Shown: piece by piece, positions 1 through 34,600 of the stretch
How the letters are laid out: each line of letters begins with the position of its first letter
Position numbering within the stretch: the stretch's first letter is position 1
From: Alphaproteobacteria bacterium UBA2964
Lineage (GTDB): Bacteria > Pseudomonadota > Alphaproteobacteria > MPNO01 > UBA2964
DNA length: 37,723 bases
Assembly: GCA_905182615.1 (NCBI GenBank)
Contig: CAJJCG010000085.1
Span: forward strand, 1 to 37,723
Direction of reading: 5' to 3'
Notes under the pieces: model-generated
Database searches by the model: none
What the model saw: only the letters and a program-made list of their open reading frames with translations
What the model was told of the DNA's origin: nothing
Position numbers and translations under genes: made by a program

Positions 1-193
1 GCTGAGTGCCGCCCATGGTCTGCTTGCGCATTTGGACGCCAGGAGCGTGTTCAGAAACAGCTTTTGAAATTGTCGCCGTAATTTGCGACACGGCACCGGC
101 TTTCGTCGAACCAATACCGAAGGTCTGTGCAGATGCCGAAGCGGCCAGCCCAACCGCAGCAGCAGTTACGAGTGTCAAAGATACAAACTTCAT
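1..193 (-). CDS. TAXI-family TRAP transporter solute-binding protein, N-terminal part only
   Basis: This is the first 64 codons of a leftward gene that runs off the window. The start ATG at 191-193 follows an AGGGAGAG ribosome site. The product opens with a Sec signal peptide (MKFVSLTLV, then an Ala-rich stretch ending ASAQ, about residues 1-22). After it comes TFGIGSTKAGAVSQITATI, which resembles the start of the TAXI (TRAP-associated extracytoplasmic immunogenic) receptor fold, where a Gly-rich strand precedes the first helix. Such receptors bind a small organic acid in the periplasm and hand it to a fused TRAP membrane permease. The gene lies 97 nt downstream of the alpha/beta hydrolase on the same strand, so it may be the distal gene of that operon. 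The family call rests on about 60 residues only. Confidence 0.6.
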   Translation of the reverse strand, partial: MKFVSLTLVTAAAVGLAASASAQTFGIGSTKAGAVSQITATISKAVSEHAPGVQMRKQTMGGTQ

Positions 194-290
194 AACTCTC
201 TCCCTATAATTTAATGAAATGTTCTAATTCGCAATTGCCGGAATCTACACACCTGAGGCACTGCGTCAAACGAAACATCACGCTAAGAAT

Positions 291-1100
291 TTAGCTAACA
301 CCGCCCAGATAACTCGAAATTATTTTATTAAACAAGGGCGGGTTTTCTGTCGCCGAATAATGACCTACACCCGGAAGAAGACGGAATTGTGCATTTGGCA
401 GGGCGGCCTCTACCGATCGGCAAACTGGCTCCGGGGCAATGGGATCATCAGCGCCACATAAGACAAGAGCCGGAGCTATGATTGAGGTTGTATCTTCGAA
501 CAAATCTGCAGTGCTTAGCATATCTACGGCTTGGCAAAATCCAGCGGGATTGACCTTCGCCATAATGCTAACTGCCTTCTCTCGCGCCACTTCCGATACA
601 CTAGAACTCATGATTGCCGGCCCTTTTTCGCGGGCAAAGCGTTTCGGGCCCAAGGTTTTAAAAACTTCGAGCCGACCATTTTTCGCTATTTCTCTTGCTT
701 CGTCGTCGAGACCACCAAGGCCAGTCAGCCCATGGGCAAAAATGTAGCTTTTGATTCGGTCTGGATTTCGAACACAAAATCGCGCAGCAACTAGTGCTGC
801 AATCGATTGTCCCAAGACATGTACCTTTTCGACCGCGAGAACACCTAACAACGCCATCAAACTGTTGGCGTAATCATCAACGGTCGGAGCCGACGAATCG
901 AAACCATCCGATCCGCCATAGCCCGGCATGTCCCAAGCAATAACCCGATATCTATCACTTAATTGATCAAGCTGTTCCTCCCAGCTTTCCGAGCTACCAC
1001 CGATGCCGTGCAATAAGACGAGCGCATCACCCTCGCCTGCTTCACGCCAGGCGAGGACCTTGCCGGCTATCAGCGCAGTTTGAAGCGCCGGGGTCGGCAC
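291..1100 (-). CDS. Alpha/beta-fold hydrolase
   Basis: The 269-residue product has the full alpha/beta hydrolase layout. The oxyanion strand is LVLLHGIGGSSESW (28-40). The nucleophile elbow is G-Q-S-I-A with Ser99. The acid is at Asp219 (LCGADDP) and the catalytic His247 lies in GVGHYSA. No signal peptide is visible, so it should be cytoplasmic. The start is GTG at 1098-1100, five bases after the stop of the upstream dioxygenase-like gene, which implies co-transcription and translational coupling. The sequence resembles the C-C bond hydrolase / 3-oxoadipate enol-lactonase / esterase group, but substrate is not predictable. Its neighbours (PhyH-like oxygenase, TAXI receptor, UbiD pair) suggest breakdown of an ester, lactone or ring-cleavage product. 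Confidence 0.88.
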   Translation of the reverse strand: MPTPALQTALIAGKVLAWREAGEGDALVLLHGIGGSSESWEEQLDQLSDRYRVIAWDMPGYGGSDGFDSSAPTVDDYANSLMALLGVLAVEKVHVLGQSIAALVAARFCVRNPDRIKSYIFAHGLTGLGGLDDEAREIAKNGRLEVFKTLGPKRFAREKGPAIMSSSVSEVAREKAVSIMAKVNPAGFCQAVDMLSTADLFEDTTSIIAPALVLCGADDPIAPEPVCRSVEAALPNAQFRLLPGVGHYSATENPPLFNKIISSYLGGVS

Positions 1101-1105
1101 GACGA

Positions 1106-1930
1106 TCAGGCCACCGGATCCCGTTCTCCAGGGGCCTGCGAATTATACATCGTAGCCACCCGATCAAGTTCGGCCAGGCACACCGGATCCCAATCCTTCT
1201 TTGGTGTCATATCGACACCCCAATGCCCCTTATTATCTTCGCCGCGTAACACCATCGCCGATGCGCCGGGGAACCCCGTTTCTTTAATCGAGGGCGGCAC
1301 ATAATGAATGGACAGCCCAATCCGCCGGTCATCCGACTTGTTCGGCGCTGAGCCATGGACGCAGTCTTCCTTATGGAAAGAGAACTGTCCGGCTTTTAGT
1401 ATCATCGATTGAGATTTGGATTCATCAACACCAACAATGGTCTGCCCACGGGACAGCAGATTCTCTTCCGACTTCAATTCCACATGATTATAAATTCCCT
1501 GATTATGCGTGCCAGGAATAAAATCCATGCAGCCGCTTTCCAGATTGCTGTCGGAAATAGCGAGCCACGCCGTCAACGTATCCGGTGGCTCCAACCCGTA
1601 ATAGGTTGAGTCCTGATGCCAGGAAACAAACCCCGGGTCATGAGCTTCTTTCTGAAAGAAGCTCGACCCCCAGCAAAGAATGTCGGGACCAATTATATCT
1701 TCTACGGCATCCAACAGCTTGGGATGGGAAATGATGTCACACAAAAACGTAAACGGTAGATGCGCCTTTATCTTGCAGCGCTGCTGAATTTGACTTCCCA
1801 TTTCCACTTCAACTTCTTCGACCTTAGCACGTAATTGCGCCGCCTCAGCGGTCGTCAGCAGATCAATAGGCCCAACAAAGCCATCATTCTTATAGCTGTC
1901 GACCTGATCCTGAGTGAGGTTTTTAGGCAT
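1106..1930 (-). CDS. Phytanoyl-CoA dioxygenase (PhyH) family oxygenase
   Basis: The 274-residue product is an Fe(II)/2-oxoglutarate-type oxygenase of the PhyH family. The metal ligands are visible as the HxD pair in WHQDSTYYG (His105, Asp107) and a distal His192 in DCVHGSAPN. An arginine of the SDDRRIGLS segment (202-203) follows and would bind the 2-oxoglutarate carboxylate. The family hydroxylates or demethylates small molecules using O2. A GGAG ribosome site lies nine bases before the ATG. The gene is first in a leftward operon with the alpha/beta hydrolase and diverges from the UbiD pair across about 160 bp. The substrate is unknown; a role in the same catabolic route as the UbiD enzymes is inference from position. 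Confidence 0.87.
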   Translation of the reverse strand: MPKNLTQDQVDSYKNDGFVGPIDLLTTAEAAQLRAKVEEVEVEMGSQIQQRCKIKAHLPFTFLCDIISHPKLLDAVEDIIGPDILCWGSSFFQKEAHDPGFVSWHQDSTYYGLEPPDTLTAWLAISDSNLESGCMDFIPGTHNQGIYNHVELKSEENLLSRGQTIVGVDESKSQSMILKAGQFSFHKEDCVHGSAPNKSDDRRIGLSIHYVPPSIKETGFPGASAMVLRGEDNKGHWGVDMTPKKDWDPVCLAELDRVATMYNSQAPGERDPVA

Positions 1931-1992
1931 CCTTATACGCTCCGCAAAAAATTCTTAATTTTAATTTTCACACGCTAACCGCTTGGAAAAGA

Positions 1993-2003
1993 TTCTTCAA
2001 GAA
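1993..2003. promoter_or_regulatory. Small perfect inverted repeat in the divergent PhyH/UbiD intergenic region
   Basis: TTCTT-C-AAGAA is an 11-base perfect inverted repeat in the roughly 160 bp between the divergent dioxygenase and first UbiD genes. The location suits an operator, but a repeat this short can arise by chance and no regulator gene lies beside it. Confidence 0.2.
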
Positions 2004-2092
2004 CGCTCGGCTGGACGTCATGCGGTCGATGTTCTATCAGTATCCGCCCCTCTAATTTATTGAATTTCAGGCAACGAACGAGAGAACAGATA

Positions 2093-3643
2093 ATGACTGA
2101 GCAGACGGAATCTGGTGTAGAACGCAATCCTGTCGCCTTTGGCGATCTCCGGGGGTGGATAGACGCCCTGCGTAAGGAAGGTGAACTCGCCGAAATCGAT
2201 GCCGAAGTAAATTGGGACGTCGAACTCGGAAACATTATCCGCATGGGACAGGGAACCGGTCACGGTCCGGCCTTCCTATTTAACAACATCACGGATTATA
2301 ACGGCCCCGATGCTGTGTCCTCGCAAGTCTTCACCGGTGGACAGGGCAGCTATTCACGCCTCGCCATGATGTTTGGTCTGCCCCGTGACACGCCTGTTAA
2401 GGAGCTCGTCCAAGTCTGCCGGACCATTTTTAATAATCAAATCGCTCCCAACACGGTAAAAACTGGCGCCGTAAAGCAAAATATCCTTAAGGGTGATGAC
2501 ATCGATTTGCTGAAGTTCCCGATACCTAAATGGAACCGCGGCGATGGCGGGCGCTATGCCCTGACCTATGCAGGGTGTGTCACAAAAGACCCCGATAGCG
2601 ATGTCCATAATATCGGCATCTATCGCGGCATGGTTCACGACAAGGACCGGCTCGGCGTTTTGTTATGGCGGGCCCAAGGTTGGGGTACTCATTACGCCAA
2701 ACATATGGAACGTGGCGACAAGATGCCGGTGGCGTTTGTTATCGGCTGGGAACCCTCGATGGGCTTCACGGGTGGCGCACCAATTCCACGCTCGATTTCC
2801 GAATATGACATCATGGGCTCGATCCGCGGCAAGCCAGTCGATCTAGTCGATTGCGAAACCGTCCCATTACAAGTTCCAGCTGACGCTGAGATGGTCATCG
2901 AAGGGTGGATCTCAACCGACCCATCGACCTTTGAACCCGAAGGTCCCTATGCCGAGTTTACCGGCTATTATGCCCCTGACCGATCGCCGAAACATGTTGC
3001 ACAGGTCACCTGTATCACGCATCGCGACAAACCAATTTTCCGCGGATGCGTCGAAGGGGCCGTTCCGGGCAGCTATGGCGAGAATCCAATTATGAGCTCG
3101 GTCCAACGCTCAGCCACCGCCTGGAATGCTCTTGAGTCGGCTGGCGTCCCTGGCGTCGTTGATGTCTTTGGTATGCCCATACAGGCCTGCGTGAATACGG
3201 TTGTTTCAATCAACCAGACCTATCGCGGTCAGGCCAAGCAAGTGGCTGCCGCCTTGTGGGGCAACTCAGCATCTCACGTGCGCTACAAACATGTGACGGT
3301 CGTCGATGCCGATATTGATGTGCATGATTACGACGCCATCGACTGGGCAATGGCCTGGCGGTTCAATGCCGGAGAAGGCGATCTCCTTGTCTATCCGGAA
3401 AACTGGGGCGCCGGACTCGACCCCAGCGTCAGAGCACGGGACTCCAACGTTCATCTGTTCGGGACAGGCAAATGGCATCGGGTCCTCTTCGACTGCACGA
3501 TCAATCTGGATTACGAACCCGGTGAAGATGGGCAGCGCTATCCACCAACAGTTCACCCGGATGAAGCAGATGCCGGCCCGATTCGCGATCGCTGGGCTCA
3601 ACTTGGCATGACTAAGTGGGGCGATCCGCTGAAACCAGTATGA
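2093..3643 (+). CDS. UbiD-family prFMN-dependent (de)carboxylase, copy 1
   Basis: The 516-residue product belongs to the UbiD family, enzymes that use prenylated FMN to remove or add a carboxyl group on aromatic or alpha,beta-unsaturated acids. The catalytic triad is visible: Arg178 in HNIGIYRG, and Glu283 and Glu288 in PEGPYAEFTGYY. Length matches the family (about 450-520). An in-frame TTG at 2060 would add 11 residues. The ATG at 2093 is preferred because an AGAGA-type site (CGAGAGAAC) precedes it and the paralogue begins similarly. A second copy follows 85 bp downstream on the same strand. No UbiX prenyltransferase is present in the window, so cofactor must be supplied from elsewhere. It is not clearly the ubiquinone UbiD; its transporter-rich context points to catabolism. 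Confidence 0.9.
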   Translation: MTEQTESGVERNPVAFGDLRGWIDALRKEGELAEIDAEVNWDVELGNIIRMGQGTGHGPAFLFNNITDYNGPDAVSSQVFTGGQGSYSRLAMMFGLPRDTPVKELVQVCRTIFNNQIAPNTVKTGAVKQNILKGDDIDLLKFPIPKWNRGDGGRYALTYAGCVTKDPDSDVHNIGIYRGMVHDKDRLGVLLWRAQGWGTHYAKHMERGDKMPVAFVIGWEPSMGFTGGAPIPRSISEYDIMGSIRGKPVDLVDCETVPLQVPADAEMVIEGWISTDPSTFEPEGPYAEFTGYYAPDRSPKHVAQVTCITHRDKPIFRGCVEGAVPGSYGENPIMSSVQRSATAWNALESAGVPGVVDVFGMPIQACVNTVVSINQTYRGQAKQVAAALWGNSASHVRYKHVTVVDADIDVHDYDAIDWAMAWRFNAGEGDLLVYPENWGAGLDPSVRARDSNVHLFGTGKWHRVLFDCTINLDYEPGEDGQRYPPTVHPDEADAGPIRDRWAQLGMTKWGDPLKPV

Positions 3644-3691
3644 CCTCCAAGCGATACGGTTGACGAATAGCCGTCGCGGAATTATTACAAA

Positions 3692-3709
3692 CCATACGGT
3701 AGCGTATGG
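3692..3709 (+). promoter_or_regulatory. Perfect 7-bp hairpin between the two UbiD genes
   Basis: CCATACG-gtag-CGTATGG forms a perfect stem with a four-base loop, ending 19 bases before the second UbiD start codon. There is no T-run, so it is not a classic terminator. It could be an intercistronic RNA stem that sets relative expression or stability of the two cistrons, or a protein-binding site. Confidence 0.4.
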
Positions 3710-3728
3710 AAATTGAGAGAGTAGGATT

Positions 3729-5282
3729 ATGGCCGGACCAGACAACGATGTTGATACATTTGGTGGTGTTTCAAACAGACTGCAACCCAAAGCCTATGGC
3801 GATCTCCGCGAATGGATCGCGGCATTGCGGGACGAAGGTGAATTGCAGGAAATTGAAGCCGAGGTCGACTGGGATTGCGAACTCGGCACGGTAGCCCGAA
3901 AAGCATTCGGCACTGGCGAAGGCCCTGCCCTGCTGTTTAAAAACATCGGCGGCTATAACAGTGATGATGCTCGCTGCAGCCAACTCTTTACCGGCGGCAT
4001 GTCAAACTTCTCACGTATTGCCATGACACTGGGTCTGCCCAAGGACGCGTCGATCACTGACATGGTTCAGGCCACGCGTTATTATCTCGGCCAACGCGTG
4101 CCCCCTGTCGAAGTCGCCACCGGTCCGGTTAAAGAAAACATCGTCACCGGCGATGAAATCGACCTCTATGATTTTCCAATTCCGAAATGGCACCGTGAAG
4201 ACGGTGGCCGCTATATCAACACCTTCCAGGCCACGATCACGATGGACCCGGATACCGGCGTTCATAACCTCGGCATCTATCGCGGCATGCTGGGCCAGAA
4301 AGATACGCTGCCGGTTCTCCTGTGGCGCGCCCAGAACTGGGGCGTTCATTTCCAGAAATGGGCCGACCGCGGCATGAAAATGCCGGTTGCCCACGTCTAT
4401 GGCTGGGAACCCTGCATGCCTTACTGCGCTTCCGCACCCGTCCCGACTGGTGTTTCGGAATATGACGTCATGGGCGCTATCCGTGGCAAACCAGTCGAGC
4501 TCGTAAAATGCGAGACCAGTGACATCATGGTCCCGGCAAGCGCCGAACTGGTTATCGAAGGCTTTATCGATCCAGATCCCGCTACATTTGAGATGGAAGG
4601 CCCATTCGGCGAATATACCGGCTACTTTGGCGGCGATCAGGGACCAAAGCATGTCACCAAAGTGACGGCGATTACCCATCGCGACCAGCCAATTTTCCGC
4701 GGCACCCTTGAAGGTACTCTGCCTAAGATGCTGAATGAGAACAGCATCATGAGCTCGGTTCAGCGAGCTGGTGTTGCCTGGAATGTTTTGGAACGCGCCG
4801 GGGTCCCCGGTGTGACCGACGTGCATTGTTCCCCTGCCAATAACGGCACCACATTGTTTATCCAGCTCAACCAGACCTATCGCGGTCAGGCCAAGCAAGC
4901 AGCAGCAGCGATCTGGGGCTCAAACGCTTCTCATCTGCGTTACAAGCATATCTGGGTCGTTGATCAGGATATCGACATCCATGATTACGCTGCTGTCGAC
5001 TGGGCTTTTGCCTATCGTGTCAACGCTGCAGAAAACGACATTGTCTTCTTCCCGGACTCTTGGGGCTCCTTGCTTGATCCGTCTACACGCCTAAAGGATC
5101 GTGACCCAATGCTGTATGGGACTGGTAAGTGGTGCCGTGTGCTGATCGACGCGACGGTCAATCTCGATTTTGAGCCAGAAGAGCAATATAACGGCGAGCG
5201 CTATCCCGCCATGGTCACCCCACATAAGGAAGACATGGATAAGGTCAACGCACGCTGGAAAGAATACGGCTTCAAAGATTAA
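3729..5282 (+). CDS. UbiD-family prFMN-dependent (de)carboxylase, copy 2
   Basis: The 517-residue product is a clear paralogue of the upstream gene, sharing long identical blocks such as LNQTYRGQAKQ-type and GSIRGKPV-type segments. The catalytic residues are kept: Arg185 in HNLGIYRG, and Glu290 and Glu295 in MEGPFGEYTGYF. The ATG at 3729 follows a GTAGGA site. The N-terminal extension before the shared YGDLREWIAALR segment differs from copy 1. Retention of both active sites suggests either two related substrates or a hetero-oligomer rather than decay of one copy; the sequence cannot tell which. A weak stem-loop follows its stop. Confidence 0.9.
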   Translation: MAGPDNDVDTFGGVSNRLQPKAYGDLREWIAALRDEGELQEIEAEVDWDCELGTVARKAFGTGEGPALLFKNIGGYNSDDARCSQLFTGGMSNFSRIAMTLGLPKDASITDMVQATRYYLGQRVPPVEVATGPVKENIVTGDEIDLYDFPIPKWHREDGGRYINTFQATITMDPDTGVHNLGIYRGMLGQKDTLPVLLWRAQNWGVHFQKWADRGMKMPVAHVYGWEPCMPYCASAPVPTGVSEYDVMGAIRGKPVELVKCETSDIMVPASAELVIEGFIDPDPATFEMEGPFGEYTGYFGGDQGPKHVTKVTAITHRDQPIFRGTLEGTLPKMLNENSIMSSVQRAGVAWNVLERAGVPGVTDVHCSPANNGTTLFIQLNQTYRGQAKQAAAAIWGSNASHLRYKHIWVVDQDIDIHDYAAVDWAFAYRVNAAENDIVFFPDSWGSLLDPSTRLKDRDPMLYGTGKWCRVLIDATVNLDFEPEEQYNGERYPAMVTPHKEDMDKVNARWKEYGFKD

Positions 5283-5284
5283 AG

Positions 5285-5309
5285 TTTTTTCGCGATCTCG
5301 CGGAAAAGT
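5285..5309 (+). terminator. Weak terminator-like stem-loop after the UbiD pair
   Basis: A T-rich flank, CGCGA-tc-TCGCG, then GAAAA can fold into a short stem extended by a G-T wobble and T-A pairs, starting two bases after the second UbiD stop codon. The T-run on the 3' side is poor, so termination efficiency is doubtful. Confidence 0.3.
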
Positions 5310-5349
5310 TATCTTTAATTCAGAATTCGACCCCATATTCTGAGGCAAT

Positions 5350-5546
5350 AAGCATGCAATAGGAAGATTTGTAACCACCAAATTAAGCGTATGTCCGCTG
5401 CGCTCGCGAATTTCCTCAATAGCGACCTTTTGCGACCAATATTAGGTAAGCCAAAGTACAGCGCCGCTTATCACCACAAAACCAGCGACAACAATCGAAC
5501 GAACGATACGCCCAGACAGAGTCTGTCCTCTACCTTCTACAAAAGT
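5350..5546 (-). pseudogene. Remnant of a DctB-like sensor histidine kinase N-terminus
   Basis: The 338 bp between the second UbiD gene and tadA holds no intact gene, but the minus strand encodes a recognisable fragment. A hydrophobic helix (RIVRSIVVAGFVVISGAVLW) is followed by an in-frame TAA (plus-strand bases 5442-5444) and then YWSQKVAIEEIRERSGHTLN and LVVTNL. A membrane helix followed by an A-x-E-E-[IL]-R-x-R-S-x-x-x-L-x-L pattern is typical of the start of the periplasmic sensor domain of C4-dicarboxylate sensor kinases (DctB). No start codon remains, and all later domains are missing. I read this as a decayed, truncated kinase that may once have controlled the adjacent transporter genes. 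The assignment is by pattern only. Confidence 0.38.
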
Positions 5547-5620
5547 TCACCGTCCATCGCTATATTAGCCATCAACCCAGAACCGAGTTAGCCCATTCAC
5601 CGTCTAGTTATTCTACCGGG

Positions 5621-6091
5621 TTAGCGCCGCACTTCAAAAAATTCCTGCAACATTGTGCGGGACCGCAACTCATCAATGCCTCCATAGACATCAGGACGGT
5701 GGTGACAGGTCGGCTGGCTAAAGAAACGCGGACCACTCTCAACGCCACCACTTTTGGGGTCTGACGCCCCAAAATACAAACGTCTAATCCGGGCCATGGA
5801 GATAGCCGCAGCACACATGGCGCAGGGCTCAAGCGTAACATACAGATCGCAATCAACCAGCCGGGTCCCACCGTAGGTTTTAGCAGCCCCTTGCAAAACC
5901 AGCATTTCTGCATGGGCCGTCGCATCCCTCAGTTCTTCGGTCCGATTACCGGCCACGGCGAGGATTTCATTGCTCGTGGTATCCACAATGACAGCACCAA
6001 CAGGAACCTCCCCCCGCAACGCAGCTTCCGCCGCCTCAGCAAGGGCGATTTCCATATATTTTTGAGCGTGAGGAGGAACTGATCCAGTCAT
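5621..6091 (-). CDS. tadA: tRNA-specific adenosine deaminase TadA
   Basis: The 156-residue product is a zinc-dependent cytidine/deoxycytidylate-deaminase-fold enzyme that converts A34 to inosine in tRNA-Arg(ACG). The motifs are H60-A-E62 (zinc ligand and proton shuttle) and P89-C-A-M-C93 (two zinc cysteines), at the spacing seen in TadA. The reading frame stays open upstream to 6202, but MTGSVPPHAQKYMEIALAEA is chosen as the start because it gives the family's usual length of about 150-160 residues. No clear ribosome site was seen. It is separated from the upstream racemase-like gene by a hairpin that probably terminates that transcript. Confidence 0.88.
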   Translation of the reverse strand: MTGSVPPHAQKYMEIALAEAAEAALRGEVPVGAVIVDTTSNEILAVAGNRTEELRDATAHAEMLVLQGAAKTYGGTRLVDCDLYVTLEPCAMCAAAISMARIRRLYFGASDPKSGGVESGPRFFSQPTCHHRPDVYGGIDELRSRTMLQEFFEVRR

Positions 6092-6204
6092 GCGCGCAAG
6101 ATGCTGGCAGCGTTGGCAAGCGTCAAGAAAAACCGGTTTTTGATAGACGGGCGCTAGTTCAATGCATAGCCCTCTATCGAGGGCGCCGACCTCTGAAATC
6201 AAGA

Positions 6205-6229
6205 AAGGGCAGCCTACGAGGCCACCCTT
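6205..6229 (-). terminator. Probable terminator of the racemase-like gene
   Basis: Read on the minus strand, AAGGG-tg-GCCT-cgt-AGGC-tg-CCCTT followed by TCTT forms a two-part stem with a three-base loop. It lies about 57 bases past the stop codon of the leftward racemase-superfamily gene and before tadA. Confidence 0.5.
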
Positions 6230-6285
6230 CCCAAAACTGCTTTAAGCTCAAAGCAGACACTTACTTTATTACCTATTTAACCACC

Positions 6286-7023
6286 TTACTTAACCATCGG
6301 CGGCATTTCTTCAAGGAGCCGGCCATACCCTTCACGGGGTTCATTGATCGAAAGCCGTTTCTGGAACTCCCAGACCCGGGCAGTGACAGGAAAGACGATC
6401 GGAATACCGAGATCCTGTTCCAACATCGGAATAATCTTCAGAGCTTTCCAACCTGTCCCAAGCATATAGATGCCCTGAGCCCGTTTATGCTTTAGAGCCA
6501 GTTTTTTAATGAAGGAATATATCTCTTCGGACGACAGCGTCTGAACTTTATTGAAGGGCACATCGATGCCTTCCATGCCCAAAACGTCAAATCCTTCCTT
6601 TTTAAAATAATCTCCGAAGGTTTTGTTGATCTCACCTTGGAAATAGCTGGCGCCGACAAAGCGTTTGACCTTTAGAGCCTTTAAAGCCGCGACATGATTT
6701 GTGCCTGACGTAAATACCTGTGTCTTATGTTTACGTTCCCACCCACGAATTTTTTTGGCTTCTCCTTCATTGCCAAGCACCATGAACGGCGGCGCCCCCT
6801 CAGGATGAATAATGTCGCAGCCCTGCTCGGCGAGAATAGCGACCTTCTCGTCATAATCTTTCATCACCGCTTTGAATTCGGCTCGGTCACCGCGTGTAAT
6901 ATTGTTAAAGAGCGGGATAACCCCGATCCCTTCCGGCAATATCCGGATCATGTCTTCAAGACCACCCGGCCGCATGGTGGGTTTAATAATGCCTATAATG
7001 CCGCGCCAGCTAGAGAACGCCAT
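6286..7023 (-). CDS. Asp/Glu racemase / maleate isomerase superfamily protein lacking both catalytic cysteines
   Basis: The 245-residue product has the two-lobed layout of the maleate cis-trans isomerase / arylmalonate decarboxylase group (N-lobe GIIKPTMRPG; Rossmann-like strands ending DIIHPEGAPPFMVLG and GIYMLGTGWKAL). In characterised members the two loops carry a cysteine pair, or a Gly/Cys pair in arylmalonate decarboxylase. Here they read G-A-P-P (76-79) and G-T-G-W (189-192), and the only cysteine (Cys69) lies before the first loop. Either a different chemistry operates or it is a binding protein. A GGGGAGAG site precedes the ATG. It diverges from a TctC-type transporter gene across 193 bp, which suggests shared regulation and a small dicarboxylate ligand. 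Fold is confident, function is not. Confidence 0.72.
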   Translation of the reverse strand: MAFSSWRGIIGIIKPTMRPGGLEDMIRILPEGIGVIPLFNNITRGDRAEFKAVMKDYDEKVAILAEQGCDIIHPEGAPPFMVLGNEGEAKKIRGWERKHKTQVFTSGTNHVAALKALKVKRFVGASYFQGEINKTFGDYFKKEGFDVLGMEGIDVPFNKVQTLSSEEIYSFIKKLALKHKRAQGIYMLGTGWKALKIIPMLEQDLGIPIVFPVTARVWEFQKRLSINEPREGYGRLLEEMPPMVK

Positions 7024-7052
7024 GTCAAAACTCTCCCCTAAAATAATATTAT

Positions 7053-7065
7053 AATTGTTACAATT
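7053..7065. promoter_or_regulatory. Candidate operator, perfect inverted repeat AATTGT-t-ACAATT
   Basis: This 13-base perfect palindrome lies 30 bases upstream of the racemase-like start codon, in the divergent intergenic region shared with the TctC-like gene. TATAAT-like sequence overlaps on the minus strand (ATTATAATATTATTTT), so a bound protein could block that promoter. A second palindrome, GGTTAACC, lies at 7074-7081. No regulator gene is adjacent. Confidence 0.35.
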
Positions 7066-7171
7066 GTGCGAGTGGTTAACCGATGACGCAAGAGCTCACA
7101 AAAATTTATGCCCGCAAATTTAATTTTTTGACTATAATTTTAGCATTGCGATCCAGATCACAAGAAAACTA

Positions 7172-7186
7172 AGCGTCTGAGACGCT
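7172..7186 (+). promoter_or_regulatory. Perfect 6-bp hairpin in the leader of the TctC-like gene
   Basis: AGCGTC-tga-GACGCT lies 30 bases before the TTG start of the solute-binding protein gene and is followed by CTTAAT. It could be a short leader stem, an operator half-site pair or a weak attenuator. A TATAAT at 7132-7137 lies upstream and may be the -10 element. Confidence 0.3.
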
Positions 7187-7216
7187 CTTAATAAAAAATG
7201 ACTTAGGGAGATTACG

Positions 7217-8269
7217 TTGAAAACATTGGGTCGAATTGGCGCTGCCGCCGTAGCGTCCGCAATTGGATTAAGCGTTACCGCTGCCGCGCATGCAGATGCG
7301 GTATCAGAATTTTATGATGGCAAAACAGTCCGCTTTTATATCGGCGCCTCACCGGGCGGCGGATATGACGTGTACATGCGGACCCTAGTCCAGCATATGG
7401 GCAAACGTTTACCCGGAAAGCCGAATGCAATTGTCGTAAACATGCCCGGCTCCGGTGGCGTCAAAGCCTCCAACTATGTCTATAATGTTGCGCCAAAAAA
7501 TGGAACAACGGTCATAACGCCCTTTTGGACCCATCCTCTATTTCAGCTCATCCGACCGCGCGGCATTAAGTTCGACATGAGTAAGATGCGCTGGATCGGC
7601 AACATGGCCGCCTTGAACAGCATGGTTGTTGCGATGGGAAGTGTCGCCAAAACACTGGATGACGCGAAGAAAAAGGAAATTGTCGTCGCCGCATCGGGTA
7701 AGGGGTCAGAAACCTATATTTTCCCACAATTCCTGAACCGGTCCATCAATACAAAGTTCAAGATTGTTACCGGCTATCGCGGCACCGCCAAAATGACTAA
7801 TGCCATGGAAGCTGGTGAAGCCCACGCGCGTGGCGGCTCCTGGCAGAGCTGGAATGTCATTCGACCCAACTGGGTTGGAACCGACAGGATCAGTGTCCTC
7901 GTACAGGCTGGAATCGCCCCACACCCAGACCCGAATGTAAAAGGTGTGCCAATGCTGGTCGATGTCGTACCGGCAGAATACAAACCAATCGCGCAACTCC
8001 TGTCCGTACCCGTCGCCATGGCTCGGATTGTCGGCTCTCCTCCGGGGATTCCCCGTGATCGCCTGATGGCCTTGCGCAAAGCATTCGATGCGACGATGAA
8101 AGATCCGGCGTTCCTTGCAGATGCAAAAAAACGCAAGATGGACCTTAACTATCTTAGTGGCGCAGATGTCGAAGCCAATATCGCTTCGCTGATGAAAACA
8201 CCGAAAGATATCCTGAAACGGACATCAGATGTCCTCGGATACACCAAAAAGAAGAAAACAAAGAAATAA
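7217..8269 (+). CDS. Tripartite tricarboxylate transporter (TctC/Bug-type) solute-binding protein
   Basis: The 350-residue product starts with a Sec signal peptide (basic MKTLGR, a hydrophobic core, then AAAHA-D at about 27). It continues with FYDGKTVRFYIGASPGGGYD, the TctC/Bug family signature in which a strand and Gly-rich loop contact a ligand carboxylate. NMPGSGGVKASNYVYN is the matching second conserved block. Such receptors deliver carboxylates to a TctA/TctB membrane pump, but no tctA or tctB lies in the window, so this is an orphan receptor here. The start is TTG with AGGGAG six bases upstream; the nearby ATG at 7198 runs into a stop at once. The tail is very Lys-rich (KKKKTKK). A strong terminator follows. 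Confidence 0.85.
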   Translation: MKTLGRIGAAAVASAIGLSVTAAAHADAVSEFYDGKTVRFYIGASPGGGYDVYMRTLVQHMGKRLPGKPNAIVVNMPGSGGVKASNYVYNVAPKNGTTVITPFWTHPLFQLIRPRGIKFDMSKMRWIGNMAALNSMVVAMGSVAKTLDDAKKKEIVVAASGKGSETYIFPQFLNRSINTKFKIVTGYRGTAKMTNAMEAGEAHARGGSWQSWNVIRPNWVGTDRISVLVQAGIAPHPDPNVKGVPMLVDVVPAEYKPIAQLLSVPVAMARIVGSPPGIPRDRLMALRKAFDATMKDPAFLADAKKRKMDLNYLSGADVEANIASLMKTPKDILKRTSDVLGYTKKKKTKK

Positions 8270-8357: not shown

Positions 8358-9068
8358 ATGAACAAACCTCTCATTGGAATAACGCTCGATTCAGAACAGC
8401 CAGGTGGATATTCAAAGTTCGCCTGGTATGCCGTTCGCGAAAACTATTGTGACTCTGTCGCTGATGCCGGTGGGCTCCCTGTCCCATTGCCCCATCAGCC
8501 CGAGATCGCGAATAGCTATCTCGACATGATCGATGGGCTAGTGATTACCGGTGGCGCATTTGACGTTGATCCCACCTTATTTGGCGACACGACACGACAC
8601 GAAACAGTCGTTACCAAAGATCGCCGGACCGCCTTTGAGCTTGCCGTTACAAAGGGCGCCATCCACCGGGATATGCCAATCCTTGGTATTTGTGGTGGCC
8701 AGCAACTACTCAATGTTGTACTTGGCGGCACTCTCATCCAACACATCCCCGATGAAATCGAAAATTCCCTGGCGCATGAGCAGCCTAATCCACGAGATGA
8801 ACCAGGCCACGATATCGCGGTCAAAACGAACACCTTGCTTCACCAGATAACCGGCACCGAAACAATGTCAGTCAACAGCGCCCATCATCAGGCCGTTAAA
8901 ACCATAGCGGGTCCGGTGACCATCAACGCAACGGCGCCCGATGGGGTCATCGAAGGCATTGAGTTGCAGAGCAAACGGTTTTGCCTGGGTGTTCAATGGC
9001 ATCCAGAATTTTCAATAGACCCCGGCGACAAACGCATATTTGCCGCCTTTATCGACGCGGCAACCTGA
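8358..9068 (+). CDS. Class I glutamine amidotransferase-like gamma-glutamyl hydrolase (PuuD/peptidase C26 family)
   Basis: The 236-residue product has the C26 catalytic set: nucleophile Cys112 in LGICGGQQLLN, and His215 and Glu217 in GVQWHPEFS. N-terminal ITLDSE and the VITGGAFDVDP block match the gamma-glutamyl-GABA hydrolase (PuuD) subgroup rather than synthetase-fused amidotransferases. It should act in the cytosol, releasing glutamate from gamma-glutamyl amides. No other putrescine-pathway gene is nearby, so the exact substrate is open. Its stop codon touches the ATG of rluB with no gap, and rsmD overlaps rluB, giving a tight three-gene unit downstream of a terminator. Confidence 0.87.
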   Translation: MNKPLIGITLDSEQPGGYSKFAWYAVRENYCDSVADAGGLPVPLPHQPEIANSYLDMIDGLVITGGAFDVDPTLFGDTTRHETVVTKDRRTAFELAVTKGAIHRDMPILGICGGQQLLNVVLGGTLIQHIPDEIENSLAHEQPNPRDEPGHDIAVKTNTLLHQITGTETMSVNSAHHQAVKTIAGPVTINATAPDGVIEGIELQSKRFCLGVQWHPEFSIDPGDKRIFAAFIDAAT

Positions 9069-23501: not shown

Positions 23502-24554
23502 TTGATATATTCAGAACCCACACACAAAGCAGCCAAAATAGCTCAGCAGGTGATGGAAGAGTTGACTGACGAGAGCATTGCGCACAATCCGCAAAATTTT
23601 ACTATTTGGTTTGATCACCTTTCAGGCCGAAATCCCGCTCTCATGAGATTCATTGATCGTGCCAAAGAGAAAGGGGTCGAGTTCTCGCCGGAGCGATTGC
23701 AGGAAATTTACACTCGTTTCATCACGTCGACAGACAATAACGTTGATCCAGTTGAATGGAACCAGCGTATAGTAGATGTCGCTTCAAAAATCACCACAGC
23801 TCTCGGCGATATTGGTGACGGTATATAAAAATATGGAGCGGCCCTCGAAGATTTTTCAGGCCATTTAAGTGGCACGGCAAGTAGTGCAGATCTAACCAAT
23901 TTAATCTCAGGTATTCTCTCCGAAACCAAATCGATGGATGGGCAGGTCAATAATCTTCAAGGTCGCGTCCGTGAATCCAGCGACGAACTGGAAGCATTAC
24001 GGCGCGAGCTTGCCGAAACCAAGCGGGAGGCCATGACCGACAAGCTTATCGGCCTGGCCAACCGGCGCTGCTTCGACGAATCACTGCTCCAGCTGACAAC
24101 TGAGGCCCGCGATAGTCGAGAACCTCTGTCGATCGCCCTATGCGACGTCGACCATTTCAAGAATTTTAACGACACTCACGGGCATCAGGTTGGCGATCAG
24201 GTTCTGCGCCTCGTCGGCAGAATCCTTTTCTAAAACGTTAAGGGCAGTGACCTTCCAGCGCGCTATGGCGGCGAGGAATTTGTTATTATTTTACCAGAAA
24301 CGCCGCTCAAAGGCGCTTCAATCGTTGCCGACCACCTGCGCGAGAAACTTGCCCGCCGCAAACTTGCCCGCAAGGGAACTGATGACACCTGCGGAAAAGT
24401 CACAATGTCCGTTGGTTTCACCGAATATATCTTCGGTGAAAACATGGAAGGACTCATCGAACGCGCCGACGGGCTGCTTTACAAAGCAAAACAAGAAGGT
24501 CGCAACCGTATCTGCGCTTCCTTGGCGCAGCTTGGGCTCAAAAAAGCCAGATAG
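23502..24554 (+). pseudogene. GGDEF diguanylate cyclase gene interrupted by two in-frame TAA codons
   Basis: One reading frame encodes about 350 residues of a cytosolic GGDEF protein but holds TAA at 23826-23828 and 24231-24233; there is no frameshift. The N-terminal part (IYSEPTHKAAKIAQQVMEEL; NPQNFTIWFDHLSGRNPAL) is a helical domain common in alphaproteobacterial cyclases, followed by a coiled-coil linker (LQGRVRESSDELEALRRELA) and the GGDEF domain. In the GGDEF domain, DKLIGLANRR, CDVDHFKNFNDTHGHQVGDQ and, past the second stop, RYGGEEF with FGENMEGLIERADGLLYKAK are intact. The I-site RxxD reads KGSD, so feedback inhibition may be lost. Active-site residues survive, so decay appears recent. 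Separate short products or sequencing error are the alternatives. Confidence 0.82.
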
Positions 24555-24630
24555 CCGAACCGCAAGCCGCTCTTAGTTATGACCGCATTCAGTTGCTAAG
24601 TACGGCCCCCACGGACAATATTGCGTAAGC

Positions 24631-25359
24631 ATGATTGTACTTTTCACTGATTTCGGTCCGTCAGGTCCTTACGTTGGCCAAATGCGCACTGCCATCGCAA
24701 AATACGCGCCCAGTGAAATCGCAATAGACCTCTTGTCTGATGCCCCAGCATTCAACCCCAAAGCCTCAGCCTATCTATTAGCCGCCCTCGCACCGGATTT
24801 TCCCGACGGTGCGATATTTCTATGTGTCGTCGACCCCGGTGTCGGTGGTGATCGGTTACCGCTCATCGTAAAAGCCAAAAATCAAGTATTTATCGGACCC
24901 GACAACGGGCTATTCTCAATTGTGGCCCGACGTTCCTCGACAGCATCAGTACAAAAAATAACTTGGAAACCAGATTATCTATCGGCAAGTTTTCACGGGA
25001 GGGATCTTTTCGCGCCAGTCGCAGCAATGATCTCGACCGGAAAAACAGACATCAGCGAACCTATATCGAAGGACACGCTGGCAAAGCCAGACTGGCCCGA
25101 CGACCTGAAATCCATCATCTATATCGATCATTTTGGAAACGCGATGACAGGAATTCGGGCCAAAACATTATCAGCCACTACCAGGCTCGAATGGTGCGGA
25201 AATAAGTTTTCCTATGCCAAAACATTTTCTAGCGTGGAATCCGGCGCCGCATTCTGGTACGAAAACGCCAACGGGCTTGCTGAAATCTCGATTAATCAGG
25301 GACGAGCCGACGACCTCGGTTTGGCCGTCGGCGAACCTATATCAATTTTGGCGCCCTAG
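24631..25359 (+). CDS. S-adenosyl-L-methionine hydrolase (DUF62/SAM hydroxide adenosyltransferase family)
   Basis: The 242-residue product carries the hallmark motifs of the family that includes fluorinase and chlorinase: [14 protein letters not shown] at the N-terminus, [21 protein letters not shown], and [13 protein letters not shown] in the N-terminal half, then a C-terminal barrel ([27 protein letters not shown]). Common members use activated water to split SAM to adenosine and methionine. It is shorter than fluorinases (about 300 residues), so a hydrolase is more likely than a halogenase. It lies 26 bases before psd, whose ribosome site follows its stop. The physiological reason for destroying SAM here is unknown. 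Confidence 0.87.
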
Positions 25360-29399: not shown

Positions 29400-30224
29400 A
29401 TGCCCCGGGACACCCTTTCACCGGACGCTATCGATCCCCCTTTTTCTCGCCACCGTGCGTCAAAGGGAGCCCAGCAGATGGAAGATTTGCGCGCCCACAT
29501 CCGGGCGCTCGAACGCCCCGGCTGGACGGGGGAAGAGAAGCTATTCTCATTGGGAATTCCGGAAATTGATCGCCAACTTCCTGCCGGTGGTTGTCCGCCG
29601 GCAGCATTGTATGAGGTTCTCCCCGATCAACCTATCGATGCCAGTGCGGCAACCGGGTTTAGCATCACCTTGCTCGCAGCTCTAACCAATTACCGCAAAG
29701 GGCGGATACTATGGTGTCTGAATGATAACGCCACCGATGCCGGTGAGATTTATCCGCCGGGCATCAGCCAACATGGATTAGATCCCTCCCGCCTCACTAT
29801 CGTTAAGACCACACGCGATACAGATGTCTTATGGGCAATGGAAGAGGCGCTACGGAGCAATGCCTTCATTGCTGTTTTGGGCGAGGTCAAAGGAATACCC
29901 ATGACCGCCAGCCGGCGTTTGCAACTAGCCGCCGAGGAAAATGACGCTCTGGCGTTACTCCTCCGCCCAGCGACGCAAACGCCCGGCCTCTCCGCCGCCG
30001 TACAACGCTGGCGGGTTAAAGCTGCTCCCAGTCACCCCAGAGGCTTTGCAGCTGTTTTGAATGAGCCAGGAGCGGCTTGCTGGCACACCACTTTATTCCG
30101 AAGCCGGGGCGGAACGCCCGGCACCTGGTTAATGGAATGGTGCGATGAGACGGATCATCTCGCTCTGGCTCCCCCGGTTTGCGACCGACCGGTTGAGCCG
30201 CATAACGCCAGCCTTACGGGATAA
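29400..30224 (+). CDS. imuA: ImuA, SOS-induced mutasome accessory protein
   Basis: The product (274 residues from this start) resembles ImuA, a RecA/SulA-like protein that works with ImuB and DnaE2 in damage-induced mutagenesis. Visible features are an N-terminal MEDLRAHIRALE helix, FSLGIPEIDRQLPAGGCPPAALYEV at the site where RecA has its first strands, and a C-terminal segment in which the serine/valine-rich core RILWCLN and AFIAVLGEV strands are kept. No good Walker A is present. ATG at 29400 follows AAGG; an in-frame ATG at 29478 is an alternative. It lies just after the LexA box and overlaps imuB by 80 bases. Confidence 0.85.
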   Translation: MPRDTLSPDAIDPPFSRHRASKGAQQMEDLRAHIRALERPGWTGEEKLFSLGIPEIDRQLPAGGCPPAALYEVLPDQPIDASAATGFSITLLAALTNYRKGRILWCLNDNATDAGEIYPPGISQHGLDPSRLTIVKTTRDTDVLWAMEEALRSNAFIAVLGEVKGIPMTASRRLQLAAEENDALALLLRPATQTPGLSAAVQRWRVKAAPSHPRGFAAVLNEPGAACWHTTLFRSRGGTPGTWLMEWCDETDHLALAPPVCDRPVEPHNASLTG

Positions 30225-31677
30225 ACCGTTTGTTCTGGTTCAGGAGCGTCAGGCCCGATTATGTCTGAGTGCTCTTAATAATCTCGCCGAACGGGCCGGG
30301 CTGGCCCCGCACATGGCGTTGGCGAATGCCCGTGCCATCATGCCTTCGATAACCGTTCATCCAGCAATGCCCAATGCCGATGGGAAAATGCTGGCGCAAC
30401 TCGCTCAATGGTGCGGTCGTTACAGCCCCTGGACCAGCACCGGGAAGGAGAATGACCCGGAGCTATCACTCGAGGGCGCAGGTGGCGCGGGAATATGGCT
30501 CGATGCCACTGGCTGTGCCCACTTGTTTGGCGGCGAAGATGCCATGTTGGCCGATATGGTTGGTCGTCTTGAGAAGCTTGGCTTTACCGCGCGCGCCGCG
30601 ATGACAGATACACTGGGCAGCGCATGGGCAGTCAGTCGATTTTCTTCAAACGATGCCTGGAAAATCGTGCCCCCTGGAGAGATACGTGCCGCTCTCGCAC
30701 CGCTGGCTATCGCCGCCCTACGCCTGCCACCCGCTACTGTTCTCGCCCTGCATGAAGTGGGGCTACGCTATATCGGCGACCTCATCGATATGCCACGAGG
30801 ACCGCTGGCAGCGCGATTTGAAAAGGAGGTTCGTTTACGTCTTGATGCCGCCCTCGGTCAAACAGCCGAACCGCTCTCGCCTATCCTCCCGACAACGCCA
30901 CTGATCGCCCGACTAACCTTTGCCGAGCCAATCGGGCACCGCGACGACATCGCTGCCGCCACCGGTAAATTACTCGACAAATTATGCATAACGATGGAGA
31001 AACTCGGTCAAGGCGCGCGACGGCTCGTGCTTTCTGTCTATCGTCCGGATGGCAGTACAGCGCGGATTACAATTGGCACAGCACGGGCCAATCGGGAGCC
31101 CCGACATCTTCTACGCCTGTTCGCTGAACATCTCGACGAGATCGACCCCGAATTTGGTATAGACGAAATGACACTGTTCGCTGCCATTGCCGAACCAATG
31201 ACCGCCAACCAAAGTAATCTTCAACGCGGTGCCGCGGCCCAAAGCACAGACAGCTATAACGCCGTGATCGACCGGCTGACCAACCGGCTTGGCACTCACA
31301 ATGTGCGGCGAACACATTTCCGGAAAAGCCATATCCCAGAACGCGCCGCAGGATTTATTCCGGTTGGTAAAGCCAAGCTTGTCCAGACGGACCAACGAGA
31401 CGCTGACACACCTCGTCCGCTTCGACTTTTGCGCCCGCCTGAACAGGTCGAAGCCGTCGCCGAAAGCACTAACGGACCGCCTGTATTATTTCGCTGGCGT
31501 CGGATTTTGCATCACGTCACAAGCTACGAGGGACCGGAGCGGATCGCCCCAGAATGGTGGCCAAGCGATGCGGAAAGCCCACGCGATTACTACCGGGTCG
31601 AGAACGAAGTGGGACAGCGTTTTTGGCTCTACCGTAATGGCGAGACATCATGGTTCCTGCATGGGGTGTTTGGATGA
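30145..31677 (+). CDS. imuB: ImuB, inactive Y-family DNA polymerase homologue
   Basis: The 510-residue product is a Y-family polymerase homologue whose catalytic acids are missing. At the first site the sequence reads SLWLPRFATDRL instead of a D-x-D motif, and the usual SxDE site reads IWLDATGCAHLFGGE. That is the ImuB pattern: a scaffold that bridges the beta clamp and DnaE2. A little-finger-like domain and the ImuB C-terminal tail (PERIAPEWW, RDYYRVENEVGQRFWLYRNG) are present. The 80-base overlap with imuA and four-base overlap with dnaE2 imply one coupled operon under LexA control. Confidence 0.93.
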   Translation: MRRIISLWLPRFATDRLSRITPALRDKPFVLVQERQARLCLSALNNLAERAGLAPHMALANARAIMPSITVHPAMPNADGKMLAQLAQWCGRYSPWTSTGKENDPELSLEGAGGAGIWLDATGCAHLFGGEDAMLADMVGRLEKLGFTARAAMTDTLGSAWAVSRFSSNDAWKIVPPGEIRAALAPLAIAALRLPPATVLALHEVGLRYIGDLIDMPRGPLAARFEKEVRLRLDAALGQTAEPLSPILPTTPLIARLTFAEPIGHRDDIAAATGKLLDKLCITMEKLGQGARRLVLSVYRPDGSTARITIGTARANREPRHLLRLFAEHLDEIDPEFGIDEMTLFAAIAEPMTANQSNLQRGAAAQSTDSYNAVIDRLTNRLGTHNVRRTHFRKSHIPERAAGFIPVGKAKLVQTDQRDADTPRPLRLLRPPEQVEAVAESTNGPPVLFRWRRILHHVTSYEGPERIAPEWWPSDAESPRDYYRVENEVGQRFWLYRNGETSWFLHGVFG

Positions 31678-34600
31678 CGCCCTACGCCGAACTGCAAACA
31701 ACCAGTAATTTTAGCTTCTTACGAGGCGCCGCCCACCCTGAAGAATTAGTCGCCCGTGCTGCCGAGAGGGATCTGGAAGCCATCGCGATCACCGACCGCA
31801 ATACCCTGGCCGGGGTTGTCCGAGCTCATCTGGCGGCCCGTGAAACGGACATAAAACTGATTGTCGGCGCCCGGCTGGACTTTACCGATGCGCCCAGCCT
31901 GATCTGTCTGCCAATGAACCGGGATGCCTATGGCCGTCTATCGCAGCTTATTACGCTTGGCCGCCGCCGAGCTCCAAAAGGTGAATGCCACTTAGGAGTC
32001 GATGATTTCATCGTTCAAGCTCATGACCAAATAGCCATCTCTCTGGCCAATGACAGGGAACCATTGCTCAAACTCGGAACTGCCCTGCCCGAACGCTGTT
32101 ATCTCGCTGGACAAAACCTGATGACTGGCGGCGATCAACGGCGGCTTGCCATCCTCGCAGAGCTCTCAGAAGCGACTACTGTCCCGCTTATCGCCACCAA
32201 CGATGTCCATTATCACGACGCCAGCCGCCGCGATATCCAGGATGTTTTGACATCAGTCCGCGAACACTGCATCGTCGAGAAAGCTGGCTACCATTTATTC
32301 GCCAACGCCGAACGTCACATCAAGTCCGGTGATGAAATGGGCAGCCTATTCCAGCACTACCCTGATGCCGTCACCCGCACGGTAGAAATAGCCGAGCGCT
32401 GCAAGTTCTCACTGGATGAGCTGGTCTATGAATATCCTGATGACGAAGCCCCGCCTGGCGTCTCACCGCAGGATCATCTCGAGACGCTGACTTGGGAGGG
32501 GGCGGAAGGCCGTTATCCCGACGGCATTCCCGGCAAGGTCAAAAAACAGATCATCCACGAGCTCACATTGATCGGCGAGTTGAGCTACGCCAACTACTTC
32601 CTCACCGTCCATGACATCGTCAACTTTGCCAACCGGGAAAATATTCTATGCCAGGGCCGTGGCTCAGCCGCCAATTCGGCCGTGTGTTACTGCCTTGGCA
32701 TCACTGCCATAGACCCGGCCCGAATTGATCTTTTATTCGAGCGTTTCATCAGCGCCGAACGTGGAGAGCCGCCCGATATCGATGTCGATTTTGAGCATGA
32801 GCGCCGGGAAGAAGTGATCCAGTATATCTATAGAAAATATGGCCGCGACCGAGCGGGGTTGGCCGCCACAGTCATTCATTACCGTGGTCGCAGTGCCATG
32901 CGCGAAATTTCGAGAGCCATGGGCCTCACCCGTGATGTCGAGGACGCACTGGCCAGCACAATTTCAGGCCGCCGATCAGGATCAATAGATGACGATCATG
33001 TGCGGGAAGCGGGGCTCAACCCGAAGGAGAAACGACTCGGCCATGCATTGCGGTTAGCGCGTGAGATCACCGGCTTTCCCCGCCATCTCTCCCAGCATGT
33101 CGGCGGCTTTGTCATAACCCGCGGGCGACTGGATGCGATAGTGCCCATTGCCAACGCCGCCATGGACGACCGGACCACCATCGAATGGGATAAGGATGAT
33201 CTTGATGCGCTTGGCATTCTGAAAGTCGATGTGTTGGGACTCGGCATGTTGACCTGTATCCGCAAGGCTTTGTCACTATTGAACGTGCATCATGGCAGGA
33301 AGCTCGAACTTGCGACTGTTCCTGCCGAAGACCCCGCCGTCTACGACATGCTGTGCAAGGCGGACTCTGTTGGTGTATTTCAGGTTGAAAGCCGGGCCCA
33401 GATGAGCATGTTGTCACGGCTCAAGCCACGTAACTTCTATGATCTGGTGATTGAGGTCGCCATCGTCCGACCCGGGCCGATCCAGGGTGACATGGTGCAC
33501 CCCTACCTGCGACGGCGGAATGGCGAAGAAAAGGCCGAGTATCCATCTGAAGCCTTACGCGCTGTGCTGGAGAAAACCTTTGGCGTGCCGCTGTTTCAGG
33601 AACAGGCGATGAAGATCGCCATCGTTGCTGCCGGGTTCACCCCTGCCGAGGCCGATGGTCTACGCCGCGCCATGGCCACTTTCCGGCGGCTTGGCAGCAT
33701 CCAGAATTATCGCGACAAAATGATCAACGGGATGATCCAACGTGGCTATGAACAGGACTTTGCCGAACGCTGTTTCAAACAGATTGAAGGATTTGGCGAT
33801 TATGGCTTTCCCGAAAGCCATGCGGCGAGCTTTGCGCTGCTGGTTTATGTCTCATCCTGGCTCAAATGCCACTACCCCGCAACCTTCGCCTGCGCGCTGC
33901 TTAACAGCCAGCCCATGGGGTTTTATGCGCCCGCCCAGATCGTCCGCGATGCCCGCGAACATGGTGTGGACATCCGCCCCGTCGACATCAATCACAGCGA
34001 ATGGGACTGCACGCTGGAGCCCGACCGGGAAAACTCACTCGCCCTCAGACTTGGGTTTCGTCAGATAAAGGGATTAAAGCCAGATGCTGCTGAGGCATTA
34101 CTGAAGGCCCGCAAATCAGGCAACGCCCGACCTTTTTCAAGTCCAGAAGACCTTTGGTTACGTAGCAATCTACAACCCTCGGCGCTTGAACGTCTTGCTA
34201 AAGCCGATAGCTATGGCTCTGTTGGCCTGTCCCGCCGCCAGGCACTCTGGGAGGTACGTCGTATAAACCCCGGCCAGTTGCCACTGTTTGCCGAAGCCGG
34301 AGAGAATATTGTTGAGCCAGAAGTGACCCTACCAACCATGGCACCTGGCGAAGAGGTCTCTCATGATTACGCGGCTATCAGGCTATCGCTTAAACATCAC
34401 CCGCTTGAATTGCTACGTGATCAGCTTGCCAGTGAGGGCGTTATACCGGCGGCACAGCTAGCCGAGACTAAAAGTGGCAAGCCGGTAACCGTGGCAGGCC
34501 TCGTAATCACCCGTCAGCGTCCCGGCACTGCCAGCGGCGTTATCTTCGCAACACTCGAAGATGAAACCGGAATCGCCAACGTAATTGTCTGGTCCAAACT

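Follow-up and report, generated by a model that had tools for sequence, protein, structure and literature searches.

We report a tandem pair of UbiD-family genes, UbiD1 and UbiD2, near the left end of a 37,723-nucleotide stretch of DNA from Alphaproteobacteria bacterium UBA2964 (assembly GCA_905182615.1, contig CAJJCG010000085.1; the whole stretch is referred to as the window). UbiX makes prenylated flavin mononucleotide (prFMN), which UbiD enzymes use to decarboxylate unsaturated, aromatic, and heteroaromatic acids in a reversible, non-oxidative reaction (PMC7976604). The best explanation of our analysis, to which we give a probability of roughly two in three, is that the genes encode an ancient tandem pair of prFMN-dependent decarboxylases acting on an aromatic-type acid, and that the pair is one of ∼33 old UbiD genes in a lineage-wide repertoire. 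An earlier note on this DNA had placed the pair in a single candidate 8.3 kb organic-acid uptake and decarboxylation island; the left part of that island is retained here as a plausible functional unit, and the island as a whole is not.

The UbiD1-UbiD2 pair and its locus

Each protein contains the three UbiD domains, and Arg173, Glu277, and Glu282 (Aspergillus niger Fdc1 numbering) are kept in both proteins and in every relative tested, in agreement with the intact Arg/Glu/Glu set described in the earlier note. The active-site residues read N R G E E E in UbiD1 and N R N E E E in UbiD2, the differing position being 191 (Gly and Asn, respectively). The two are tandem paralogues with 56% identity, and UbiD2 has a dN/dS (ratio of nonsynonymous to synonymous substitution rates) of ∼0.014 against its ortholog in a closed chromosome of the same genus (hereafter the closed relative). 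The activity predicted for the pair is prFMN-dependent decarboxylation.

A phylogeny against characterized members, as had been proposed, placed the pair in a separate clade of its own. The wider tree indicates that the duplication is older than the split of the order's sampled families and that the nearest outgroup consists of UbiD proteins of a groundwater betaproteobacterium. The pair lies outside the clade of Escherichia coli UbiD, the canonical ubiquinone-biosynthesis enzyme, and outside that of phthaloyl-coenzyme A (CoA) decarboxylase (8pmk; 57-59 bits). With the solved UbiD-family enzymes (7pda, HmfF, HudA/PA0254, Fdc1, and E. coli UbiD), the pair shares the three-domain architecture, Arg/Glu/Glu, and a genomic UbiX; it differs from them by its own clade and by the Gly or Asn at the metal-ligand position. 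UbiD2 is 31-39% identical to Fdc1 and HudA/PA0254 and 39% identical to 7pda, and UbiD1 is about 29-30% identical to Fdc1 and HudA/PA0254. UbiD1 and UbiD2 represent an uncharacterized subfamily of prFMN-type decarboxylases whose substrate is probably an aromatic or heteroaromatic acid.

The gene context was compared at 40 loci encoding UbiD2 relatives, drawn from 84,980 species genomes. UbiD1 is directly upstream of UbiD2 at 21/21 informative loci of the order. Of the neighbors that the earlier note had grouped with the tandem, the PhyH oxygenase, the hydrolase, and the TAXI-TRAP genes are confined to the window's family, and the genes for the Amdase-fold protein (Amd) and the TctC-like receptor are patchy. 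The PhyH and hydrolase genes are located divergently upstream of the tandem at eight loci (L009-L014, L016, and L042), all in the window's family, and TAXI-TRAP genes come next in five of these (L009-L011, L016, and L042); hydrolase-PhyH divergent from UbiD1-UbiD2 with TAXI-TRAP adjoining is kept in most loci of the family. The downstream tadA-C26-RsuA genes are common to several families and present at most order loci, and constitute an ancestral housekeeping flank that is not part of the UbiD module. Amd was found at only four other loci (L012, L013, L014, and L016) and TctC at three (L012-L014), and neither occurs at L009-L011 or L042 or in other families; the two form a separable module. 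In the closed relative, UbiD1 and UbiD2 are separated by an oppositely oriented gene for a LysR-like regulator (3843164-3843958, assigned from its translated start), which is missing from this position in the window.

Outside the window's family, the partners are of a different type. Eight loci from other families (L018-L022, L024, L027, and L043) have, in the slot of the PhyH and hydrolase genes, a Rieske dioxygenase alpha/beta pair divergent from UbiD1. These subunits are 62-83% (alpha) and 60-71% (beta) identical to those of L022, and their best NCBIfam models are the benzoate 1,2-dioxygenase subunits, with scores below the equivalog cut-offs. A benzoate-CoA-ligase-family gene adjoins the UbiD2 relative at five more distant loci (L026, L028, L030, L031, and L033). 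The ligase of L028 scores 378.9 against TIGR02262 (cut-off 375.25), and molybdenum (Mo)-hydroxylase subunit genes are immediately upstream of UbiD2 at this locus. Because of these BenAB-like Rieske, benzoate-CoA-ligase, and Mo-hydroxylase neighbors, the gene context points to aromatic-ring metabolism for the present UbiD subfamily. L030 is from a culturable isolate, Propylenella binzhouense L72, which has UbiD2 (77%) and UbiD1-like (63%) genes.

The ligase neighbors also bear on the form of the substrate. By analogy with the phthaloyl-CoA and isophthalyl-CoA decarboxylases, the pair could act on an aryl-CoA thioester and not on the free acid, a reading consistent with the five ligase loci and with the pairing of ligase and UbiD in isophthalate degradation (PMC9516798). 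However, no ligase adjoins the pair in the window or at most order loci, and phthaloyl-CoA decarboxylase is only a distant relative of the window pair (≤59 bits), which leaves the thioester an unlikely, though serious, candidate.

The two proteins could likewise be obligate partners in a hetero-oligomer, with catalysis confined to one subunit and a structural or substrate-selecting role for its partner, as in phenylphosphate carboxylase. The invariant adjacency in the order, the age of the duplicates at 56% identity, and the restriction of Gly191 in UbiD1 to the window's family (other UbiD1 proteins of the order have His) are in line with such an arrangement. On the other hand, Arg/Glu/Glu is kept in both proteins and UbiD enzymes are usually homomeric. 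Moreover, most loci outside the order have a solitary UbiD2 relative, so that UbiD2, if not its partner, is probably able to function by itself. We consider an obligate hetero-oligomer doubtful.

From the observed gene identities, catalytic residues, conservation, selection, copy numbers, and single UbiX, we infer a scheme that assigns a substrate class, an uptake role, a reaction order, and a direction of catalysis to the pair of decarboxylases. In the window's family, the acid would enter via the adjoining TAXI-TRAP transporter, and the divergent hydrolase and PhyH oxygenase would prepare or process it; in related families, a benzoate-dioxygenase-like Rieske enzyme would oxygenate in place of PhyH. 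UbiX supplies the prenylated flavin cofactor to UbiD apo-enzymes, and UbiD1 and UbiD2 would both use prFMN from a single UbiX. The pair would most likely decarboxylate an aromatic or heteroaromatic acid, either free or CoA-activated.

Several observations weigh against this scheme. A close characterized relative was not found, the best PDB match being 7pda (259 bits for UbiD2 and 229 bits for UbiD1). The position of the metal-binding His191 of Fdc1 is occupied by Gly or Asn in the pair. This residue is a metal ligand in Fdc1, and a His there does not define the UbiD family; the position is His in just 34 of the 70 UbiD proteins of the window genome and the closed relative. The partner genes vary among lineages, which weakens any fixed pathway. 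Finally, when co-localization was tested by 5,000 circular shifts on the closed chromosome, TctC, PhyH, and TAXI genes were not enriched near UbiD genes genome-wide.

This last result also counts against the proposal that all genes within 1-8269 serve one pathway of organic-acid uptake and decarboxylation, as do the interruption by tadA, a gene that the earlier note does not list and that stands between the UbiD pair and the Amd-TctC unit, and the absence of Amd-TctC from the loci listed above. Every family of the proposed pathway acts on carboxylates, and TAXI, hydrolase, PhyH, and the two UbiD genes cohere in the window's family. An uptake and prFMN-decarboxylation unit is thus plausible for the left part, and a single pathway across the full 8.3 kb is very unlikely.

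The UbiD repertoire of the order

The window genome, a metagenome-assembled genome (MAG) of 2.45 Mb that is 73% complete, contains 33 UbiD genes. Most bacteria have none or one, and counts are 0-5 in the 34 genomes sampled elsewhere in the class, outside the order. Within the order, 25 of the 27 sampled genomes have 22-37; the closed 4.15 Mb chromosome carries 37, and G011, a 99%-complete genome of 2.5 Mb from the window's family, carries 28. Because the order carries 22-37 UbiD genes as compared to none or one in most bacteria, the data point to a lineage specialized in stripping carboxyl groups from aromatic-type acids. The two exceptions in the order are MAGs of 1.3-1.4 Mb that are ∼70% complete (G005 and G026), with 9 and 1 UbiD genes and 5 and 4 Mo-hydroxylases, respectively; G026 has no UbiX match, and both may have undergone genome reduction.

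Samples were also drawn evenly from Pseudomonadota (397 genomes) and Alphaproteobacteria (386 genomes), with up to seven candidates scored in each; outside the window's family, none of these genomes exceeded 16 first-look UbiD candidates. UbiD expansion nevertheless also occurs outside the order: a groundwater betaproteobacterium (61 UbiD genes), a Sterolibacterium MAG (34), and a Bradyrhizobiaceae MAG (32) are also UbiD-rich, and constitute a biased sample, as they were found via relatives of the window protein. Several UbiD proteins of the groundwater MAG (G476, locus L040) fall in the same tree clades as those of the window's order, which suggests exchange between UbiD-rich genomes.

UbiX is usually present as a single copy. 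One match over the cut-off was found in 22 of the 27 order genomes, two in three, and none in two; the single UbiX of the window genome is its one TIGR00421 match over the cut-off. Mo-hydroxylases, on the other hand, are co-expanded, with at least 22-38 scored matches and 24-66 first-look candidates per order genome (G005 and G026 excepted) versus 0-16 matches in other orders. On the closed chromosome, circular shifts revealed a modest excess of Mo-hydroxylase genes near UbiD genes within 3 kb (6 vs 2.0 expected, reached in 0.8% of shifts) and 10 kb (14 vs 5.7, 0.4%) that was not significant at 6 kb (9%). An oxygenase- or hydroxylase-type gene is located within four genes of 21 of the 37 UbiD genes of this chromosome. 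Neighbors at UbiD loci include Mo-hydroxylases, TauD/TfdA, Rieske and VOC dioxygenases, SDRs, enoyl-CoA hydratase, a thiolase with a ChsH2 OB-fold protein, and transporters of the TRAP, TTT, and EamA types. A broader and more tentative proposal, which we hold at somewhat less than even odds, is that this uncultured marine and sponge-associated order as a whole is specialized in prFMN chemistry, such that ∼30 UbiD enzymes of ancient divergence and distinct function, served by one UbiX, together with the co-expanded Mo-hydroxylases, would decarboxylate many refractory aromatic or carboxyl-rich compounds.

The copies are old. In a maximum-likelihood tree of the 70 UbiD proteins of the window genome and the closed relative, near-complete one-to-one ortholog pairs are set on long separating branches. 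All 33 UbiD proteins of the window genome have distinct orthologs in the closed relative with 88-96% identity, as compared to a median identity of 27% between paralogues, and 27 of the 28 UbiD proteins of G011 have 63-90% identical counterparts in one or the other genome. Each of the 33 pairs has a dN/dS of 0.012-0.076 (median 0.024) at a dS of 1.67, which is near saturation. Orthologous pairs share on average 4.55 neighbor families within four genes versus 0.24 for non-orthologous pairs, and 32/33 share at least one neighboring gene family. Arg173 is kept in 69/70 proteins and Glu282, as Glu or Asp, in 69/70; position 191 varies widely. The UbiD repertoire is therefore ancient, retained, and under purifying selection. 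The tandem arrangement is not one of chance, being present at every informative order locus, and all 33 UbiD genes have orthologs in the closed relative. One UbiD of the closed relative (1833735) is the sole paralogue of the 70 with a degenerate active site (Arg173 to Tyr and Glu282 to Thr) and has a very long branch.

The high count could in principle stem from faulty binning or from recent transposon-like amplification, since the window genome is an incomplete MAG. This was ruled out by the 37 copies on one closed chromosome, by the individual orthologs and conserved neighborhoods, and by the ∼27% identity between paralogues, and its probability is negligible.

Relation to known systems

Phthaloyl-CoA decarboxylase (8pmk and 8oz5) belongs to the same superfamily, and its orthologues are encoded elsewhere in the window genome, the window pair being outside their clade. 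A UbiD gene on contig C40 (L101:8323-9903) is a close ortholog (822 bits to 8pmk) with Rieske dioxygenase genes nearby, and one on contig C53 (L102) falls in the phthaloyl-CoA decarboxylase clade; these are phthaloyl-CoA decarboxylase orthologs in a marine or sponge-associated lineage. Contig C45 encodes the canonical ubiquinone-biosynthesis UbiD (657 bits to 2idb). For a clade of seven paralogues, most of ∼550 amino acids, no close solved relative was found (one member compared).

The cluster of isophthalate CoA ligase and isophthalyl-CoA decarboxylase from Syntrophorhabdus (PMC9516798) has an aryl-CoA ligase beside UbiD, as do the five UbiD2-relative loci described above. The likeness noted here is one of gene arrangement; Syntrophorhabdus is an anaerobe, and the window has no ligase. 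In the Arctic Ocean, uncultured Rhodospirillales-like orders of marine Alphaproteobacteria are rich in aromatic-compound genes (PMC9789639); the study makes no mention of UbiD or decarboxylases, and its orders may not be the window's. The UbiD family and ligase-UbiD clusters are already known, as is the richness of uncultured marine Alphaproteobacteria in aromatic-degradation genes. No report of a UbiD expansion was found in open-access papers, preprints and most subscription journals being outside the search.

UbiD enzymes are valued for reversible C-H (de)carboxylation, and structures cover only about a dozen specificities. Here, one 2.5-4 Mb genome holds more than 30 deeply diverged and strongly conserved UbiD genes, nearly all in a conserved neighborhood with hints of the substrate, and this set is a catalogue for enzyme discovery. 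The long-open question of who decarboxylates carboxyl-rich refractory organic matter becomes directly testable, and a cofactor question is raised as to how one UbiX supplies more than 30 apo-enzymes.

Other genes of the window

The genes around the pair are listed in Table 1. The PhyH and alpha/beta hydrolase assignments of the earlier note were borne out by Pfam. The PhyH protein carries His-x-Asp (WHQDSTYYG in the translation), and because of this motif it is of the hydroxylase type and not of the halogenase type. The hydrolase scores 129 bits against NCBIfam PcaDC, far under the equivalog cut-off of 390. For UbiD1, an alternative upstream TTG start at 2060 is possible.

The remaining assignments stood in part. 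The receptor is of the TAXI-TRAP type as proposed, and the window holds its N-terminus alone; a full ortholog (84-90%) with a TRAP permease is beside the same genes in L009, L010, and L042, and the receptor with a fused permease is present in L009, L010, L011, L016, and L042. The protein described as having a racemase/maleate-isomerase fold does have the Amdase fold, without the catalytic Cys expected in the C-terminal half: IACTAL of 2dgd aligns to MLGTGW, which replaces Cys with Gly. The TctC call is weak, scoring below the Pfam cut-off, with PDB matches to tricarboxylate receptors (E 1e-5).

Table 1. Features at the left end of the window
Feature	Position	Strand	Basis
TAXI-type TRAP receptor, truncated by the contig edge after its first 64 aa	complement(<1..193)	-	translation
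Alpha/beta hydrolase, PcaD-like	291-1100	-	Pfam Abhydrolase_1, 91 bits
PhyH-family Fe(II)/2-oxoglutarate oxygenase	1106-1930	-	Pfam PhyH, 97 bits; best PDB match 6zyk, 133 bits
UbiD1	2093-3643	+	Pfam UbiD_N, UbiD, UbiD_C over curated cut-off
UbiD2	3729-5282	+	Pfam UbiD_N, UbiD, UbiD_C over curated cut-off
tRNA adenosine deaminase TadA (housekeeping)	5621-6202, start probably 6055	-	Pfam and NCBIfam
Amdase-fold protein (arylmalonate decarboxylase / Asp-Glu racemase fold)	6286-7023	-	Pfam Amdase, 58 bits
TctC-like periplasmic receptor	7217-8269	+	Pfam TctC, 22.4 bits, below 27-bit cut-off
Class-I glutamine amidotransferase-like peptidase C26 (outside UbiD module)	8358-9068	+	Pfam

Further along the window, a run of short plus-strand open reading frames at 23553-25359, which includes a GGDEF-like fragment, may be a broken signaling gene. 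Three plus-strand genes at 29478-34838 form an apparent ImuA-ImuB-DnaE2 mutasome cassette, as judged from their translated starts alone.

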